From a virus, in the IMG/VR virus record IMGVR_UViG_3300033150_000806, positions 1 to 21,960 of that record: a stretch of DNA of 21,960 bases. The stretch is one strand, 5' to 3'. Positions 3,296 through 21,960 of this stretch are shown piece by piece. Numbering within the stretch: the stretch's first letter is position 1; each line of letters opens with the position of its first letter. Made by a program: the position numbers and the translations under genes. Under the pieces are notes generated by a model. That model ran no database searches and was not told the DNA's origin. It saw only the letters and a program-made list of their open reading frames with translations.

Positions 3296-3350
3296 CAACG
3301 CACAGAATTGATTTCTGACGCTTTTATGGCTATATAAGTAGAAAGGTATT

Positions 3351-3384
3351 ACCGCCCGCTTAATTGTGGGCGGTTTTCTTTTTT
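3351..3384 (+). terminator. intrinsic terminator after the tail module
   Basis: A 7-bp perfect stem (ACCGCCC at 3351-3357 with GGGCGGT at 3368-3374) has a 10-nt loop and is followed by a T-rich run. This is a textbook rho-independent terminator. It separates the late tail transcript from the early promoter 33 nt further on. Confidence 0.9.
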
Positions 3385-3416
3385 ATAAATCGTTACAAAA
3401 ATGGTTGAAAAAAGGG

Positions 3417-3450
3417 TTGACATTTCGACAAATCCTGTTATAATAATAGT
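3417..3450 (+). promoter_or_regulatory. strong extended -10 sigma-70 promoter, apparently leaderless
   Basis: A perfect TTGACA (3417-3422), a 16-bp spacer and TGTTATAAT (TG at 3436-3437, TATAAT at 3439-3444). Only six bases separate the -10 box from the ATG at 3451, so the expected start of transcription is the A of the ATG itself and no ribosome-binding site can precede it. It is placed to drive the whole early operon. Confidence 0.88.
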
Positions 3451-3615
3451 ATGCCTAAATATGATTCCAATACCAAGATAGAAAGAAACAAGGCTATCGT
3501 TGAGATGGTCAGGAGGCGACCAGATTTTTCGCTAAAAGAGATTGGCAAGATATTCGGCATCTCTGGTGCAAGAATATGGCTAATCAATAAGAAGTGGAAA
3601 GGTAAGCTAGATTAA
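3451..3615 (+). CDS. 54-aa helix-turn-helix protein
   Basis: The frame opens at ATG 3451 and reads MPKYDSNTKIERNKAIVEMV, then a helix-turn-helix: SLKEIGKIFGISGARIWLINK. This resembles the small homeodomain-like or sigma region 4-type HTH found in phage early regulators. It is the first gene after the strong promoter and would be read from a leaderless message. The C-terminus is lysine-rich (KKWKGKLD), fitting DNA binding. It may act as a small early repressor or activator; the target is unknown. Confidence 0.75.
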   Translation: MPKYDSNTKIERNKAIVEMVRRRPDFSLKEIGKIFGISGARIWLINKKWKGKLD

Positions 3616-4103: not shown

Positions 4104-5258
4104 ATGCCGATTTATGAAGATGAAACAAGAACTAGAAAAGACTTGGACAAGCTTCGCAGAAAGAACAAGTGTGCGATATGCGGGGAAAGGCTAGACATAT
4201 TCCTTGATAGAGAATCAGGTAAGGTCTTTCTCGCTTGCCATAACTGGCCAACAAGCCCACCGGCAAGTCACCACGAAGGTATTGTGAGGGAATACCAAGC
4301 GCAAGATGAAGACTACGAATCTGATATAAGGAGGTTGGTAGAAATGGAAAACAGAGTAGGGGCAAAGGCTACAAAGGCTCTCCAAAAGATGCCGGCTCAC
4401 GGCCAGCTTACACAGCCACAGGCTGAACATATCTTGAGCCTTGTCTATCCAGGAGCACCAAAGGATGAGATTATCCGATGTGCTATCCTATGCAGGGACT
4501 TTGGCTTACATCCTCTAATGAAAGAGGTATACCTTATCCCATTCAAAGATAAGGATGGCAAAGCTAACTATGCGACAGTTCTCGGCATCAACGCCACTCG
4601 GAAGTTGATGGCACAGAGGGGGACTTATTCTTACATTGATGATACCCCGAGGCTTATGACCGAAGATGAGCAGAAGCGGATATTCGGAGAGGTTGATGCA
4701 AAGAATATAGTCGCCATCACCAAACTGAGGACAAAGGATGGGCTTGAGGCACCGGGCTATGGTAGGTGGCCAAGGGAAAAAGAGCCATATGGAACTGACA
4801 AGGGTAACACAAAAGCTAATATGGCTTTCATTCGGAGTGAGCGCAATGCCTTTAGCCGACTATCACCTGATGCTTTGCCTGAAGGCATTGAGGTTATTGA
4901 TGAAGCCTATGTTGAAGTGCCAGATGTGGGCAAGGTAACCACTGAGACTGGTGAAGTTATTGAGGATAAGGCAGAGGAAGTGAAGCCAGAAGAGAAGCCT
5001 AAGCCAAAAGCCAAGACAGATAAGGTGGTAGAGGAACAGCCTGAGTTACTTGTAGAGCCAGCCGAGAAAGATGAGACACCTATTGACATAGAGCAATTGA
5101 CTCATATCACGCAGATGATGAAGGATGCTGGTATGGACTTGGCAGCCATAGGTAAATACTGCAATGTGGACAAGGGCTGGAATATCAGGAAACTGGGAGA
5201 CCTTGTTAATTGGCAGTATGACGAGCTTGTAGAAGCCTTTGAGAAAGGGAAGGCTTGA
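4104..5258 (+). CDS. recT: RecT/Bet-family single-strand annealing protein with N-terminal zinc finger
   Basis: A 384-residue protein. Residues 23-60 carry CAIC, then CHNW and paired His (Cys 23, 26, 45; His 46, 56, 57), a likely zinc-binding cap. Residues 105-260 match the RecT/Bet annealase core: CRDFGLHPLMKEVYLIPF is equivalent to the conserved 'LNPLTKEIYAFP' strand, followed by TVLGINATRKL and a basic NMAFIRSERNAF helix. An acidic linker (about 270-325, KPEEKPKPKAK) joins a small C-terminal helical region (330-380). The role is annealing of single-stranded ends in recombination and replication. No separate RecE/exonuclease is present, but a VRR-NUC nuclease lies downstream. The extra zinc finger is unusual for the family. 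Confidence 0.8.
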   Translation: MPIYEDETRTRKDLDKLRRKNKCAICGERLDIFLDRESGKVFLACHNWPTSPPASHHEGIVREYQAQDEDYESDIRRLVEMENRVGAKATKALQKMPAHGQLTQPQAEHILSLVYPGAPKDEIIRCAILCRDFGLHPLMKEVYLIPFKDKDGKANYATVLGINATRKLMAQRGTYSYIDDTPRLMTEDEQKRIFGEVDAKNIVAITKLRTKDGLEAPGYGRWPREKEPYGTDKGNTKANMAFIRSERNAFSRLSPDALPEGIEVIDEAYVEVPDVGKVTTETGEVIEDKAEEVKPEEKPKPKAKTDKVVEEQPELLVEPAEKDETPIDIEQLTHITQMMKDAGMDLAAIGKYCNVDKGWNIRKLGDLVNWQYDELVEAFEKGKA

Positions 5259-5271
5259 GTTTACCCCCTGA

Positions 5272-5341
5272 CTATGGACTTGTTAGTGTCTGGATTATCG
5301 GTGTTCATTCCAGTAGGATAACCGAGCTAACAAGTCCATAG
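5272..5341 (+). promoter_or_regulatory. 15-bp perfect inverted repeat with nested pairing in its loop
   Basis: Arms CTATGGACTTGTTAG (5272-5286) and CTAACAAGTCCATAG (5327-5341) are perfectly complementary around a 40-nt loop. Inside the loop CTGGA (5290-5294) pairs with TCCAG (5309-5313). TCGGT (5298-5302) pairs with ACCGA (5321-5325) in an interlocked order, the topology of an H-type pseudoknot. There is no T-run after it, so it is not an ordinary terminator. It fills most of the gap between recT and the next gene and could be a structured RNA, an attenuator or a replication-origin cruciform. Confidence 0.6.
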
Positions 5342-5357: not shown

Positions 5358-5561
5358 ATGAGCCTAGTTGAAGTAATGGAAGAGTGCGAAGTTTGTGAAG
5401 CCTGCGGAATTAGCAATCAGGGCGTTGAAGAACACGGGCTGGTTGAGTATAGAGAACACAGGATTTGCACTTATTGTGTTAGGTCGTGGGCTGCCAGGGA
5501 GAAACGGACTGGATATAAACTATCTTGGGAAGAGTTCACCACTGGTAAATTAAAGAGGTGA
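5358..5561 (+). CDS. 67-aa small zinc-ribbon protein
   Basis: A 67-residue protein with two cysteine pairs, CEACG near residue 13 and CTYC near residue 39, flanked by acidic and basic helices (SWAAREKRTGYKLSWEEF). The spacing of about 20 residues between pairs is that of a treble-clef or zinc-ribbon module. The ATG lies after AGAGGATAAGCAG, only 16 nt past the inverted repeat at 5272-5341, so that element may influence its expression. No further function can be deduced. Confidence 0.7.
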   Translation: MSLVEVMEECEVCEACGISNQGVEEHGLVEYREHRICTYCVRSWAAREKRTGYKLSWEEFTTGKLKR

Positions 5562-5595
5562 AAAAGTATCAGATATATGCTGAAAGGAGAAGGAG

Positions 5596-5775
5596 ATGGA
5601 AAACAATTATTTGGCAAAGGATGAAACCTACTACAAGGTGAGACGCTACAGCCCTGATAAGTTTTACGGCGAATTCAGTTTAGACCCAGAGAGGGAAGCA
5701 ATAAAAGAGGGAGAGATATTCTTTGATAATATAAGCCAAGAGTTTGTGATACGAATAGAAGTTATAAAGATTTAA
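5596..5775 (+). CDS. 59-aa unknown protein
   Basis: ATG 5596 follows an excellent AAAGGAGAAGGAG box and opens MENNYLAKDETYYKVRRY, ending in TAA at 5773. The protein is rich in Tyr, Asp and Glu with alternating strands (KFYGEFSLD, EIFFDNISQEFVIRIEV). No motif is recognised. It keeps the operon direction and close spacing, so it is likely real. Confidence 0.6.
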   Translation: MENNYLAKDETYYKVRRYSPDKFYGEFSLDPEREAIKEGEIFFDNISQEFVIRIEVIKI

Positions 5776-5820
5776 CTGGGGCAATGAGGCAGAGAGTGAT
5801 ATTGGGTTATAGGAGGCTCA

Positions 5821-6270
5821 ATGCCAAGAGGTAGATTTATATCCAAGAGCTTCTACAACAACTACAGGTTGAACTCTATGCCTGTAGAGGTTCATCACCC
5901 TAAGATACGGAAGCACATTGTCGAACACAAGGCAGAAGATAAGACGCCGGCTGAGATTAAGACTGATGACCTCAAGGTAGCTGGTATGATTAAATATTAT
6001 CAGGACCAACTAGGCAGAATGCTGACCCCGCATGATTACAACAACCTTGTTGATTATGCTGATAACTACTTGGATGGGTGGTTTGAGAAAGCAGTTGATG
6101 AAGCCATAAAGAATAATGCTCGAACCCCAATGAGATATATTGAGAAGATAATGGAGAATTGGAGAGAAGAGGGGGTAAATCCACTTGTCGGACCAAGGGC
6201 TAAGACAAATCGGGAGCAGTCTACCTCAACTGAAAAGCTCAAGGAAAGCACCACCAAAAAGCTTAGATAA
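5821..6270 (+). CDS. DnaD-domain replication protein
   Basis: A 149-residue protein after an AGGAGG box. Residues 55-118 match the DnaD/DnaB_2 C-terminal domain: MIKYYQDQLGRMLTPHDY, then YLDGWFEKAVDEAIKNN and the hallmark RYIEKIMENWREEG. The N-terminus is basic, and the C-terminal tail (120-149) is disordered and Lys/Thr-rich. DnaD-family proteins remodel the origin and, with a DnaC/DnaI-type loader, bring in the replicative helicase. The next gene is such a loader and overlaps this one by 86 nt. It is short because the winged-helix N-domain typical of full DnaD is absent. Confidence 0.85.
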   Translation: MPRGRFISKSFYNNYRLNSMPVEVHHPKIRKHIVEHKAEDKTPAEIKTDDLKVAGMIKYYQDQLGRMLTPHDYNNLVDYADNYLDGWFEKAVDEAIKNNARTPMRYIEKIMENWREEGVNPLVGPRAKTNREQSTSTEKLKESTTKKLR

Positions 6271-7000
6271 TGAGCTGGCGGTAGAAGAGGGAGTCTGCCC
6301 TATCTGTAAAGGGATTGGGCTTCTGCACCCAAAAGGTGAGGATGGAAAGCCAGACTATAGCAGGGCTGTAATCTGTGATTGCAAGCGTGAAGAGCATGAA
6401 CAGCAACGCAGGCAGAGCCTCTTGAGGCTTTGTGGACTTCCCTTCGGCACAGACAATCTAACCTTTGATACATTCTGCGTAGATAAACGCTGGCCTGCTC
6501 TATATGAAGCCAAGAGGTTATCAATCGAGTTAGCAGAGGAAACCTCGAACATTAGGTGGCTCTGCCTTTTAGGTGGGGCTGACTGCGGTAAGACACATCT
6601 TGCTATTGCTATATGCCGGCGCCGACTTGAGAGGAACAAGCCAGCCCGATATGTCTTTGTTCCCTTAATGCTTGATGAACTCCGAAGGGGATACAGCAAA
6701 GAGGGTGATGATGCCTACGATTCCAAGTTACAGTTCTTAATGAATGTGGACTTGCTAGTTCTCGATGACTTGGGAGCGCAGACACCTACACCCTGGGCAA
6801 TGGAACGCCTGATGATGCTTGTAGACTATCGGAGCGTGAATGGATTGCCACTGGTAGTCACTACTAATAAGCCCCTGACAGACTTGCCAGGTGATGATGA
6901 GCACCGAATTGGAAGCAGACTGCTGAGATTCCCTGCTGGACGGCAGATAGTTATTGATTCACCGGAATACAGGACTTGGAGAAATGAAAAAAGGAATTAG
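6185..7000 (+). CDS. DnaC/DnaI-like AAA+ helicase loader
   Basis: A 271-residue protein. The TTG start at 6185 is accepted because GAGGGGG lies about 9 nt upstream and no better in-frame start exists before the zinc motif; it creates an 86-nt overlap with the DnaD-like gene. Cys 38, 41, 64 and 66 form an N-terminal zinc-binding site (CPIC, CDCK). Walker A is GGADCGKT (130-137), Walker B LLVLDD (190-195), sensor 1 TTN (226-228), and RIGSRL (241-246) supplies the arginine finger. This matches DnaC-type loaders of the replicative DnaB helicase. No phage helicase is seen in the window, so it may load the host DnaB. Confidence 0.87.
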   Translation: MSDQGLRQIGSSLPQLKSSRKAPPKSLDNELAVEEGVCPICKGIGLLHPKGEDGKPDYSRAVICDCKREEHEQQRRQSLLRLCGLPFGTDNLTFDTFCVDKRWPALYEAKRLSIELAEETSNIRWLCLLGGADCGKTHLAIAICRRRLERNKPARYVFVPLMLDELRRGYSKEGDDAYDSKLQFLMNVDLLVLDDLGAQTPTPWAMERLMMLVDYRSVNGLPLVVTTNKPLTDLPGDDEHRIGSRLLRFPAGRQIVIDSPEYRTWRNEKRN

Positions 7001-7391
7001 CGAGACAGCCTTCTCAACTCAGATTGAGGACTTGTTTGAGAGGTTCGGCTGGTTATGGTGTCACTTCCGACCAGCTATGAGGCGAGATGGCAGCTGGTAT
7101 ACGGCATTATCTGGTTATGCGGGGATGCTTGACTATATTGTAGCCAGAGAGCGTGATGGTAGGCTCATTTTCGCAGAGTTGAAGGATGAAGCCTCTAAGT
7201 TAGACCCACTCCAGTTGAAGTGGTTTGAGACGCTGAAGGCTTGCCAGAGGTCAGTTCTTGCCGAGCCTATACCAGTGGCGAGAAATGTAGACCTGATAGC
7301 ATTTCTAAAGACCTGTAGTTTTATCAATATACCTGAAGTCTATGTCTGGAAACCAAGCCAGATTGACGAAATCGTGGAGATATTAAGATGA
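6984..7391 (+). CDS. VRR-NUC family nuclease
   Basis: About 135 residues. ATG 6984 is favoured over an upstream TTG (6954), although the GGAGA before it is very close. Conserved PD-(D/E)XK residues are visible: GMLDYIVA (Asp 50), IFAELKDE (Glu 65, Lys 67), and LQLKWFE with Gln 77. This matches the VRR-NUC nuclease family found beside phage replication genes, where a Holliday-junction or flap-processing role is often proposed. Its start overlaps the loader gene end by 17 nt. It may supply the nuclease partner for the RecT-like annealase, which is inference. Confidence 0.8.
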   Translation: MKKGISETAFSTQIEDLFERFGWLWCHFRPAMRRDGSWYTALSGYAGMLDYIVARERDGRLIFAELKDEASKLDPLQLKWFETLKACQRSVLAEPIPVARNVDLIAFLKTCSFINIPEVYVWKPSQIDEIVEILR

Positions 7392-7667: not shown

Positions 7668-8159
7668 TTACAGGAGTTGCGATTGGTTACTGAGCAATGC
7701 TTCAAGTTCCTGTATTCTCTTGGCTTTGGCCGAAAGAATAAGGCGATGTTTCCTGTCAGGGAGAGCTATGAGATTGACAGGTCTATTATCATTTCTTATT
7801 CCATTAAGGTGATGGATTACCCAACCATTTGGCAGGAGTTTATTGTGAGCCTTTTCCCATACCAATATATGCTCGCAGACATATCCTCTTTTATCTGCTC
7901 TAGAATGTTCTGGAAAGAGTATCTTAATATATCCTCTTATCTCACGCCTGCCACCTTTATATACAGCATTTCCAATTCGCCTCTCACCAGAACGAACGGC
8001 TATCTTGTAAGCGCAGGACTTACAATGTTGAGACCTATAATCAATGAGTTTACCACAAGAGCAAAGTTTCCTGTGCCTGAGACGGCTTTCTTTGCTTTGT
8101 CGCAACTTCTTTTCACGATGAGAATGATAATATTGACGATGATATTCTTTCGTATCCAT
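7668..8159 (-). CDS. HNH endonuclease inserted antisense in the early operon
   Basis: A 163-residue protein read leftward. It has a basic N-terminus, then a zinc pair set (Cys 33, 35, 46, 49: CSCG, CKSC), then the HNH core (GYVCEHILVW, GWVIHHLNGI, RPVNLIAL) with His 97, His 116-117 and Asn 129. This is the free-standing HNH homing-endonuclease type common in phages. It runs opposite to all surrounding genes and has its own promoter, the mark of an invading selfish element. The long rightward frame on the other strand is a shadow. Confidence 0.88.
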   Translation of the reverse strand: MDTKEYHRQYYHSHREKKLRQSKESRLRHRKLCSCGKLIDYRSQHCKSCAYKIAVRSGERRIGNAVYKGGRREIRGYIKILFPEHSRADKRGYVCEHILVWEKAHNKLLPNGWVIHHLNGIRNDNRPVNLIALPDRKHRLILSAKAKRIQELEALLSNQSQLL

Positions 8160-12493: not shown

Positions 12494-12712
12494 TTAGCCT
12501 ATTTTCTCATAAGCATAAACCCCCTTGATATTGTCTGCCAGGTATTTACCCTTGCTACTGGCATCTAGGAACTCTTTAACAACCCCTTCCGGCACATTAT
12601 GGTAGACATACTCAGCCCCGGAACTGAACCGGACATAGAGCTCTCTCTCATCGGCGTCATAGCCGATAGCATCTATGTTGGATGATACTACCTCAGTCCA
12701 ATTGATGCCCAT
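12494..12712 (-). CDS. KTSC-domain protein
   Basis: About 72 residues from ATG (12712); the alternative GTG at 12721 is rejected because AAAGGGGG then stands too close. The sequence V-S-S-N-I-D-A-I-G-Y-D, LYVRFSSGAEYVYHNVP and KEFLDASSKGKYLADNI matches the small KTSC domain, often seen next to replication genes or fused to DNA-related enzymes. It may bind nucleic acid. It is the last gene of the leftward operon. Confidence 0.8.
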   Translation of the reverse strand: MGINWTEVVSSNIDAIGYDADERELYVRFSSGAEYVYHNVPEGVVKEFLDASSKGKYLADNIKGVYAYEKIG

Positions 12713-14465: not shown

Positions 14466-14642
14466 CTATATACCTTGCTCGTTTATTATCTTCCTTACTG
14501 CCTGCCGGGTGATGCCATACTGCCGGGCAATCTCCGCCATATTACCTTCACCACCCTGACTGTAAAGCCATCTGATATACTGGTTCCGCTTGTATGTTTT
14601 CTTTGCCTTCTGTTGTAGTATGCTGCGTTGCTGCTTATTCAT
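14466..14642 (-). CDS. 58-aa helix-turn-helix protein
   Basis: ATG 14642 with AGGAGAGG 7 nt upstream; the earlier ATG (14663) has no site. It reads MNKQQRSILQQKAKKTYKR and then MAEIARQYGITRQAVRKIINEQG, a resolvase/homeodomain-type helix-turn-helix. Part of its ribosome-binding site lies inside the left arm of a 27-bp inverted repeat (14655-14681). It may be a small DNA-binding regulator. Confidence 0.6.
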   Translation of the reverse strand: MNKQQRSILQQKAKKTYKRNQYIRWLYSQGGEGNMAEIARQYGITRQAVRKIINEQGI

Positions 14643-14654
14643 TTGCTTACCTCT

Positions 14655-14681
14655 CCTTAACAACTCAATAGAACTGGCGGG
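14655..14681 (+). repeat. left arm of 27-bp inverted repeat
   Basis: A 27-bp stretch beginning CCTTAACAACTCAATAGAAC is repeated perfectly in inverted orientation at 14904-14930. The two arms enclose 222 bp containing a single gene, the 63-aa ORF. The flanks outside the arms show no match and no obvious target duplication. Confidence 0.95.
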
Positions 14682-14692
14682 CGATTTTTATT

Positions 14693-14884
14693 TTATTTAA
14701 TTACCCTGCAGGCGGTTAGGAATTTATCTCTTTGGAATCTTGGGTTTTGAGTTTCAAAATAGGATGCTAAATCTATGGCTATTTTTGTGGCGGTTTCTCG
14801 TTCTGGTTTTGTATTGCAGTATGTTGAATCAATGTAGGGGCGGAGATAACGGGCGATTGCCTCAAAGTGTTGCTTCGTAAACAT
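14693..14884 (-). CDS. 63-aa phage protein between inverted repeats
   Basis: A 63-residue protein after AAGGAG. It opens MFTKQHFEAIARYLRPYI and continues with TATKIAIDLASYFETQNPRFQRDKFL. This is a recurring small phage protein (helical, with the ETQNPRFxRxxF end), function unknown. It is the only gene between the two 27-bp inverted repeat arms. Confidence 0.6.
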   Translation of the reverse strand: MFTKQHFEAIARYLRPYIDSTYCNTKPERETATKIAIDLASYFETQNPRFQRDKFLTACRVIK

Positions 14885-14903
14885 TGGGTTCTACTCCTTC
14901 CTA

Positions 14904-14930
14904 CCCGCCAGTTCTATTGAGTTGTTAAGG
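14904..14930 (+). repeat. right arm of 27-bp inverted repeat
   Basis: Perfect reverse complement of 14655-14681 (ends with GAGTTGTTAAGG). It lies in the 104-bp gap upstream of the 63-aa gene, which otherwise holds only a weak hairpin (TTATC/GATAA near 14946-14961). Confidence 0.95.
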
Positions 14931-14988: not shown

Positions 14989-15270
14989 CTAACTGTTAAG
15001 GTCTGTCAATATATATGTCCCGTCTTTTATCTTTGCTTCGGTTTCTTTGCGTGTCTCTCCTAAAAACTGATTGCGGTATTTGCCAGTGGTCTTTGAGCAA
15101 TCCCATCTGTAGTCAAGGATAACCTCACCGTGTAGTGGATGTCCTGGCATAACTTTGGCTATTACTGTCCTGTAGCTCTGGAAGTAAGTAACGCCTTGGT
15201 CGTCGACGATGATAAACTGGTTTGGAACTTCTCTCCCGGTGCTGTTGCTAGTCATGTTTTGGACTTTCAT
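14989..15270 (-). CDS. 93-aa conserved phage hypothetical protein
   Basis: A 93-residue protein after AAAGGGGA. The elements NQFIIVDDQG, VTYFQSYRTVIAKV, LDYRWDCSKTTGKYRNQFLG and the C-terminal KIKDGTYILTDLN recur in small phage proteins of this type (FIIxxxxGxYFQSY and YRNQFLGE). The fold is a beta-rich small domain. It is the first gene of the leftward operon. Confidence 0.65.
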   Translation of the reverse strand: MKVQNMTSNSTGREVPNQFIIVDDQGVTYFQSYRTVIAKVMPGHPLHGEVILDYRWDCSKTTGKYRNQFLGETRKETEAKIKDGTYILTDLNS

Positions 15271-15301: not shown

Positions 15302-15330
15302 ATATTAAACTATTTACTGGCTGTTGTCAA
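15302..15330 (-). promoter_or_regulatory. leftward operon promoter (TTGACA, 17 bp, TAATAT)
   Basis: Read leftward: TTGACA (15325-15330), a 17-bp spacer and TAATAT (15302-15307). It leads directly to the gene at 15270 after a short leader with AAAGGGGA. A second TTGACA stands at 15375-15380 with an AT-rich -10 candidate (15351-15356), so tandem promoters are possible. Confidence 0.7.
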
Positions 15331-15742
15331 GCCCCCCTCACGCCTGAGCCTTAATATTTATTTTGAGCCTGACTTGTCAAAATCCCCACATCTTTATAGC
15401 TGATATTGATGGGGTTCTTCCGGGCAAGGGTTTACATTATAATGTTATGTCGGTGTCGCTTCCGTGCCTGAGTAAGATTTATTTACTCTTACCTATTGAC
15501 TTTTCAAAGGATATAGTTTATGCTTGACATTAGCCGTGCCTTGGCGCTCACCACCCAGGAACACGGCCTCCGTTTTCCTCCTCACTTACCCACCCCCTTT
15601 TAGCTGCCCGGGGAGCTGACCCCGGGCAATGCCCTTGATTAGCCTGGGCAATACTCCCAGGTTTGATTATATCTGACTATAAATCAATTGCTTGCTTTAC
15701 CCGCTTTTTGTATACATTATGTTAGTTTTCGGAGTGTGAACT
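15331..15742. promoter_or_regulatory. divergent control region with promoters and hairpins
   Basis: No convincing gene is found here. Rightward promoter candidates are TTGACT-17-TATGCT (15496-15524) and TTGCTT-17-TATACA (15688-15716), the latter just before the small-terminase-like gene. A perfect palindrome ACATTATAATGT lies at 15434-15445 and a related TACATTATGTTA near 15713. Hairpins: TGCCCGGGG/CCCCGGGCA (15605-15628), CCTGGG/CCCAGG (15643-15661) and GAGTAA/TTACTC (about 15469-15488). None ends in a T-run. Its place next to packaging genes allows a pac/cos role, which is only a suggestion. Confidence 0.55.
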
Positions 15743-18348: not shown

Positions 18349-18615
18349 ATGCCTATTTACGAATACAAGTGCGTCAAGCACGGTAAATTTGAGAAATTAT
18401 GCCCTCTCAGCGAGGCTTCAAAGACTGCACTGTGCCCGGTTTGTCAGGAGGAATCACCCAGGGTAATCTCTCTTGTCCACTGGGCAATAGGCTGGAATTT
18501 TTTGAAGGATAAATCCAAGAAATCACCGCCGGCTCCCGAGGACTCAGGATTTTATCCAGAGTGGGACCAGGCTTATGCGCCATACAGAGGGGGTGACACG
18601 ATTGTCGGTGGCTAG
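18349..18615 (+). CDS. FmdB-like zinc-ribbon protein
   Basis: An 88-residue protein that opens MPIYEYKCVKHGKFEKLC and has CPVCQ (29-33). The MPIYEYxC start followed by a second Cys pair is the FmdB putative regulatory zinc-ribbon family. The C-terminus is proline-rich. It stands immediately before the terminase, whose start lies inside its last codons. Confidence 0.75.
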   Translation: MPIYEYKCVKHGKFEKLCPLSEASKTALCPVCQEESPRVISLVHWAIGWNFLKDKSKKSPPAPEDSGFYPEWDQAYAPYRGGDTIVGG

Positions 18616-20047
18616 TGAGTTGGTGAGGACGCCTGAAGTGGATGCTAGAATCCGTGCTCAGGCAAGGAAATTCCCTGATTGGTGGATTGAAAAGGTGCTG
18701 GGTTGCCGGCTCTGGCGTATGCAGAAGGCTATTGCTCAGTCTACTTTTTATTATCCTAGAACAACTGTTCGGAGCTGTGAGGCTTCCGGTAAGAGCTATG
18801 ACGCTGCCAGGATTGTTCTTGCCTTCCTTTATAACTTTCCCCCGGCAACTGTCGTCACTACAGCGCCGACTAACAGGCAGGTCGAGGATGTTCTGTGGCG
18901 TGAAATAAGGCTTGCCTTTAATGAATCCAAGATGGCACTTTCTGGCAACCTGACCCGGAAATCTTTGGAGATAGCCGATGATTGGTTTGCTATAGGCTTT
19001 GCTACCGATGAGCCGGAGCGGATGCTTGGCTATCATAATGTAAATGTGCTGGTGGTTGGCGATGATGCTGCTGGCCTTTCAAGCGATATTTTCGGTGCCA
19101 TTGAAAATCCTCTCTCTACTGGCAACACACATGAGCTCCTGCTGTCTAACCCGACTCAATCAGTAGGTGCTTTCCGGGATACCTTTAACTCAGACCTCTA
19201 TAAAAAATTCCATATTTCTGCCTTTAATACGCCGAACCTGGCTTACTTTGGTATAACCCAGGATGATATAGAGTCTGGGGAATGGGAAAAGAAGTGGGGC
19301 GGACAGGAACTGCCATATCCCCAGCTTATCAGTCCGCAGAAAGTGGCAGAGAGATATAAGGAATGGGGTAAGGGCTCTTACCTCTATACTGTCTTTACCC
19401 TGGGCGACTTCCCTGAAGCCGGTGTCAATAACCTTTGCCGGCTGTCTGATATAGAGTCCGCTATGGCAAGGGAGATTGAGCGGAAAGACTATGAGAAGTC
19501 GCTCAAGGTCGCTGCTCTTGATGTGGCAAGATACGGCGATGACGAGTGCTGCTTCGCCATCAGACAGGGTAACAAGGTTTTTGAACCTCATACTTGGGGG
19601 CATCAGGAGTCAACCTACACTGCCGGCCGGACTGCAAACCTCATCAAAGAATATAAACCGGTCAGAACTTATGTTGATGTGGTCGGGCTTGGTGCCGGCG
19701 TCTACGATATTCTAAAGAAGGAAATCGGGGAAGAGTATAAGATTGTTGAGTTTGATTCGGGCAAACCGGCACTTGACACGGAACGCTACCTCAACCGCAG
19801 GGCTGAGGGATGGTGGGACTTTAACCGGAAGTTATCTGACGGCGAATTGGATTTGCCAAACAACGGGAAGCTGAAGGCACAACTCGCCGATATACGGTAT
19901 ACCTACAACACAAAGGGGCTTCTCCAGATAGAGAGCAAAGAGGATGCAAAGGATAGAGGCAGCAAGTCTCCCGATGTCGGCGATGCTGTTATGATGACCT
20001 TCAGCAAGAAAAAGGGTGGCGGTGGCTCGCAAGTTTGGAGATACTAA
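18602..20047 (+). CDS. terL: terminase large subunit
   Basis: About 481 residues. The TTG start at 18602 is preferred because GAGGGGG (18587-18593) stands 8 nt upstream, although an ATG exists 27 nt earlier without a site. Motifs: Walker A variant SCEASGKS (Cys 59 to Ser 65), TTAPT (86-90), VLVVGDD (Walker B, Asp 154-155), coupling SNPT (182-185), and nuclease acids in ALDVARYGDD (307), YVDVVGLG (359) and SPDVGDA (458, 461). It is the ATP-driven motor and nuclease that packs and cuts phage DNA at the portal. The Walker A is atypical but within terminase range. Confidence 0.92.
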   Translation: MSVASELVRTPEVDARIRAQARKFPDWWIEKVLGCRLWRMQKAIAQSTFYYPRTTVRSCEASGKSYDAARIVLAFLYNFPPATVVTTAPTNRQVEDVLWREIRLAFNESKMALSGNLTRKSLEIADDWFAIGFATDEPERMLGYHNVNVLVVGDDAAGLSSDIFGAIENPLSTGNTHELLLSNPTQSVGAFRDTFNSDLYKKFHISAFNTPNLAYFGITQDDIESGEWEKKWGGQELPYPQLISPQKVAERYKEWGKGSYLYTVFTLGDFPEAGVNNLCRLSDIESAMAREIERKDYEKSLKVAALDVARYGDDECCFAIRQGNKVFEPHTWGHQESTYTAGRTANLIKEYKPVRTYVDVVGLGAGVYDILKKEIGEEYKIVEFDSGKPALDTERYLNRRAEGWWDFNRKLSDGELDLPNNGKLKAQLADIRYTYNTKGLLQIESKEDAKDRGSKSPDVGDAVMMTFSKKKGGGGSQVWRY

Positions 20048-21847: not shown

Positions 21848-21848
21848 T

Positions 21849-21960
21849 ATGACAGTAAAAAACATAAAGGAAGCAGAAGCTCGAATCCGCAAAGCTATGG
21901 AACCGCCAGCTACTCAAGCTGGCCCGACCTTTGCCCCCAGTATTCAGAAGATGAGGCAGA
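21849..21960 (+). CDS. next head gene (partial, runs off the window)
   Basis: ATG 21849 lies 1 nt after the portal stop and opens MTVKNIKEAEARIRKAMEPP, continuing with KMRQ at the window edge. Helical and basic; only 37 codons are visible. In this position a scaffold, protease or minor head protein is usual, but nothing more can be said. Confidence 0.5.
   Translation, partial: MTVKNIKEAEARIRKAMEPPATQAGPTFAPSIQKMRQ

Follow-up and report, generated by a model that had tools for sequence, protein, structure and literature searches.

Distant complementary stretches of one transcript can form a long helix around a complete unit, as in the long-range stems cut by RNase III, of which the stems of pre-rRNA and the sites in phage T7 early mRNA are examples. 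At the DNA level, phages carry inversion modules such as Gin of Mu and Cin of P1, in which inverted repeats surround a gene-bearing segment, and small elements such as MPME1 and MPME2, which carry one small open reading frame (ORF). Each of these small elements spans a few hundred bases and has inverted repeats close to its ends; MPME1 measures 439 bp, recurs in several phages and is marked by a 6-bp addition at its insertion (PMC3029335). Perfect reverse-complement repeats and RNA stems are known to arise by template switching, and the repeats so formed are long, perfect and abruptly ended (PMC8794818).

Here we analysed a 21,960-base viral contig (IMG/VR record IMGVR_UViG_3300033150_000806; hereafter, 'the window'), which is taken whole, is classed as linear and is probably a fragment. 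The original prediction of a perfect inverted repeat around a single gene is confirmed: 27 of 27 bases are complementary between positions 14655–14681 and 14904–14930, 222 nucleotides (nt) apart, and the gap holds one 63-amino-acid (aa) ORF (p63) as a complete translation unit with Shine-Dalgarno sequence, reading frame and stop codon. Each of the described systems resembles this arrangement in part. The RNase III stems share its long helix around a complete unit, whereas the repeat in the window encloses a single small phage mRNA unit, is not conserved in relatives and has a cleavage that is only proposed. Template-switch repeats could equally form an RNA stem, but theirs are hairpins with loops much shorter than the 222-nt spacer (PMC8794818). 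In contrast to Gin and Cin, the unit has no invertase gene, dyad-symmetric sites, alternative gene end or internal promoter, and, unlike MPME1 and MPME2, it is present in a single copy, has perfect 27-bp arms and bears no insertion signature (PMC3029335). Our preferred explanation is an inverted duplication of local origin, whose action, if any, is that of a stem in mRNA. A real role at the RNA level is a tentative proposal to which we give somewhat less than an even chance, and a neutral scar is almost as likely.

A perfect 27-bp inverted repeat in a module of small genes

The repeat is real, rare and far beyond chance. Its 21-base arm core, with up to three mismatches allowed, occurs twice in the whole window, these copies being the arms themselves, and none is expected by chance. 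In 150 first-order random sequences with the dinucleotide frequencies of the window, perfect inverted repeats with up to 1 kb between their arms reached maximum lengths of 11–15 bp. Across about 1.1 Mb of other phage loci, at spacings of 80–1000 nt, the longest was 20 bp, a single case (contig L106) that belongs to that contig's own dispersed palindromic repeat family. An aligned extension of the arms to 36 nt at 89% identity reflects a few scattered matches outside the perfect stretch. The exact 25-base arm pattern was absent from 2.9 million viral contigs, a collection that may omit the records closest to the window; a blastn search of a phage collection with the 3-kb region gave no match, and the only Rfam match, at the promoter region, was at chance level.

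The two arms lie entirely between genes, provided that the downstream gene begins at the ATG at 14640–14642, and both fall in a single leftward module, whose genes are small. In minus-strand order, the module runs from promoter-like boxes through a 93-aa gene, a 104-nt gap with the 5′ arm, p63 and a 50-nt gap with the 3′ arm to a gene for a helix-turn-helix (HTH) protein. The candidate promoter, TTGACA-17-TAATAT, lies at 15302–15330, with a second TTGACA box upstream at 15380–15353, and the surroundings of this promoter-like stretch are 82% identical over 57 bases in one relative (L095). The first gene (14989–15270, minus strand) has a profile match to phrog_21575. The 5′ arm of the leftward transcript (CCTTAACAACTCAATAGAACTGGCGGG, 14904–14930) ends 2 nt before the Shine-Dalgarno sequence of the enclosed gene (GGAAGGAG, 14894–14901), and p63 itself occupies 14693–14884, also on the minus strand. 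The 3′ arm (CCCGCCAGTTCTATTGAGTTGTTAAGG, 14655–14681) begins 11 nt past the p63 stop codon and ends, as originally noted, inside the ribosome-binding site of the next gene (AAGGAGAGG, 14650–14658), of which it contains the AAGG. No promoter-like or terminator-like match was found between the arms, and no U-run or terminator-like site after the 3′ arm.

The HTH gene (14466–14642, minus strand) is best read from its ATG; a TTG further upstream, at 14663, has no Shine-Dalgarno sequence. Its small product resembles sigma-70 region 4 and Mor-like HTH domains, with Sigma70_r4, HTH_28, HTH_7 and Mor all just below their Pfam cut-offs, and it matches PHROG 836, 'late transcriptional activator', at E=9e-5. 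The protein had been described as a helix-turn-helix protein with a resolvase-like HTH; the first part holds fairly, if weakly, on these sub-cut-off profiles, whereas the likeness to resolvases is not specific and comes with no catalytic domain. Pfam and PHROG profiles detected no recombinase domain in it, and searches of viral and phage collections gave no match.

The product of the enclosed gene is a member of a small-protein family that is widespread in phages and marked by the motif NPRFxRxKFLxACG, and its match to phrog_19432 is weak. Family members include gp44 of Mycobacterium phage Predator, a protein of Rhizobium phage RHph_X3_9 and members at 35 viral loci. p63 is an ordinary small phage protein and not a transposase. 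A family profile found no match in genome contigs, p63 had none in plasmids, and the protein was absent from 15 related or comparison records. In three loci (L123, L124 and L127), the motif also begins much longer open frames of 160–260 aa, and it may therefore occur as a domain in addition to forming a protein by itself.

Relatives of the window differ in gene content at this site

Related phages were compared for one or both arms. In the relatives recognized by terminase and portal genes (L004–L007), no comparable version of the region is present. The module itself recurs in three syntenic relatives (L093, L094 and L095), flanked by orthologues of the window genes at 12494 and 15743, but there it is made up of different small genes; it contains no orthologue of p63 or of the HTH gene and no perfect repeat of at least 14 bp. 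Neither arm occurs in any relative, and neither a reversed orientation nor an empty site was seen; since the relatives have other genes at this place, a site that was empty or had one arm could not be seen. The search for homologous sequences carrying the arms found none, and there is therefore no covariation showing selection on pairing.

The terminase of the window (18575–20047) has as its best named relative that of vir525, a virus assigned to Methanosarcinales, at 39.5% identity, and the host of the window could therefore be archaeal. A terminase search of genome contigs returned no relative. In a comparison of window positions 21848–21960 with L004 positions 5503–6227, the last 113 bases of the window are 99% identical to L004 while the portal gene is 90% identical, and L004 has 612 extra bases after the portal gene. 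This difference may reflect the gain or loss of a gene, or a join made in assembly at the end of the contig.

A predicted stem in the leftward mRNA

Folding of the region as minus-strand RNA gives the 27-bp stem, with a z-score of −3.8 that beats all 100 shuffles. The arm duplex has a calculated energy of −49.2 kcal/mol, and the mean pair probability of the stem in the predicted ensemble is 0.99. Both arms would lie in one transcript, judged from their single leftward module and the promoter-like stretch upstream of it, and the stem that they are predicted to form is stable, as in a long-range mRNA stem. The same ensemble pairs the AAGG of the HTH Shine-Dalgarno sequence (0.00–0.01 unpaired); when the 5′ arm is barred from pairing, the first two AAGG bases are predicted to open (0.97 unpaired). 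This pairing covers only the first half of the Shine-Dalgarno sequence, and the GAGAGG just downstream could still serve. The proposal that the arms pair across the gene in the leftward mRNA and hide the HTH start agrees with the predicted stem as far as the AAGG, and masking would be partial. Among the three readings first offered for the repeat (an invertible segment, an RNA stem and the scar of a transposable unit), the RNA stem alone has positive evidence, namely the position of both arms in gene gaps of one leftward module behind a conserved promoter-like stretch, the predicted stem and its pairing of the AAGG; the original interpretation as a whole is partly supported.

The repeat most likely arose by one local inverted duplication, for example through template switching during replication. 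The template was probably the segment whose end lies in the HTH Shine-Dalgarno sequence, and an inverted copy of it would have been set into the gap ahead of p63. Once transcribed leftward, the arms would pair into a 27-bp helix closing a 222-nt loop that holds exactly one translation unit. A perfect 27-bp helix is a plausible substrate for RNase III, its length being sufficient. The likely effect is on the RNA: the helix would serve as a double-stranded site of processing, parting p63 from its neighbours, and would partly mask the HTH ribosome site while p63 goes untranslated. If the stem works in this way, the phage would have a simple means to release or silence one operon gene, namely an mRNA fold around that gene, and sequence alone would suffice to find brackets of this kind. 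Weighing against a function of the stem, a translating ribosome would cross the loop, and some 19 other p63-family loci have no bracketing stem, which argues that the family has no need of one.

Those loci come from a survey of 20 non-redundant p63-family loci, each tested for a bracketing stem against a control of 8,000 segments drawn at random from the gathered phage loci. Scoring was by ungapped pairing, which replaced full-length flank duplex energies, a measure insensitive enough that the window itself reached a z-score of only −1.1. Apart from the window (score 27.3), one locus stands out, L109, at 23.6 against a control maximum of 20.3; the other 19 of the 20 have no bracket. A rough estimate of the probability is 20 in 8,000. 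L109 is an unrelated, AT-rich phage contig in which arms at 1826–1853 and 2304–2331 enclose a 45-aa gene together with a p63 homologue. Its arms are 28 nt long, 17 of them perfect, and two of the three DNA mismatches would be U–G pairs on the transcribed strand; as in the window, the 5′ arm lies just upstream of the Shine-Dalgarno sequence of the first gene.

A possible neutral scar and a possible family-wide stem

The closest rival is a neutral scar, in which a recent template switch left an inverted copy of 27 bases at a distance of a few hundred bases. The scar would survive because it landed in gene gaps and had no function of its own. We rate this explanation only slightly below an RNA-level role. 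Template switching is known to produce perfect repeats and stems (PMC8794818), and the perfection of the arms suits a young event. The gap upstream of p63, at 104 nt, is wide beside those among the six next downstream genes (−44 to 50 nt), as an insertion would give, yet two gaps farther downstream, of 119 and 166 nt, exceed it. L109 also contributes to this side of the argument: its two repeats lie within 2 kb, and the second, of 18 bp, is inside a coding HNH gene (3340–3545), where selection for an RNA stem is unlikely; this second repeat suggests that repeats in that region arise by mutation. What a neutral scar accounts for less readily is the precise placement of the arms, 2 nt before one Shine-Dalgarno sequence, 11 nt after a stop codon and ending in the next Shine-Dalgarno sequence, and the presence of a second bracketed p63-family gene in an unrelated phage. 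As a scar, the repeat would cleanly illustrate how small-gene regions of phages gain perfect inverted repeats.

A broader version of the stem reading would be that p63-family genes in unrelated phages are repeatedly enclosed by mRNA stems that cut out or isolate one translation unit of a polycistronic transcript, in effect miniature rRNA processing stems applied to mRNA. We regard this generalization as unlikely.

Inversion, misassembly and mobility as unlikely readings

Inversion by a site-specific recombinase that flips p63 in and out of its operon was the first mechanism proposed for the repeat. The inverted repeats are indeed perfect, the unit has its own Shine-Dalgarno sequence and stop codon, and flipping would keep the neighbouring ribosome site intact. 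However, profiles for serine and tyrosine recombinases (PF00239 and PF00589) were unmatched in the window and in 11 other records, including relatives of 39 kb and 41 kb, in searches that detected their controls. The arms do not resemble an invertase-type site either: they have no dyad-symmetric core, their best internal dyad matching at 6 of 13 positions, and no flipped copy is known. A recombinase could lie elsewhere in the phage genome or in the host, because the window is a partial genome, but the evidence does not support inversion and we consider it very improbable.

Equally little weight falls on an assembly artefact, in which the arms would wrongly join two fragments. The window is one metagenome-derived virus contig, which leaves room for such an error, but reading frames, ribosome sites and gene order continue smoothly across both arms, and the joins made by assemblers usually put repeats at contig ends.

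Least probable of all is a small mobile cassette, MITE-like or MPME-like, carrying p63, or the scar of such a transposable unit: the small size and terminal inverted repeats fit, and MPMEs are phage elements of comparably small size (PMC3029335), but the outer flanks (TTACCTCT and TGCTGTTA) share no target duplication or similarity, the unit is present once in the window with its exact arm absent from the viral collection, p63 is not a transposase and its relatives have no terminal repeats, and the syntenic relatives lack the p63 and HTH genes altogether.

Other hairpins and repeats

The window holds a second intergenic hairpin, at 5272–5341 on the plus strand, directly downstream of the RecT gene and a short way ahead of the following Shine-Dalgarno sequence, with perfect 15-bp arms, a 40-nt spacer and a z-score of −4.9. 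The arm of this hairpin and the core of the 27-bp arm are alike (CTATnGAnTTGTTA), at a probability of about 0.0024 per comparison, or about 0.03 once the other repeats are roughly allowed for, so that kinship between the two is suggestive only. A dispersed family of sites like the arm core was considered and rejected: there are four exact matches, all in these two repeats, and with two mismatches allowed there are 5 sites against 2.3 expected.

Hairpins of another kind are dispersed in five of the other contigs (L008–L012). They have perfect arms of 21–24 bp and spacers of 31–49 nt, start with TGTTTGTGTTGGGCT and number three or four per 3 kb in L008–L010; examples in L009 lie at 5195–5285, 6424–6504, 7064–7147 and 7813–7896. 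They look like a phage-specific repeat family. The palindromic repeat of L106 (TCTCAGGGTCCTGAGAACC) is likewise dispersed, with at least three copies between 197 and 1717.
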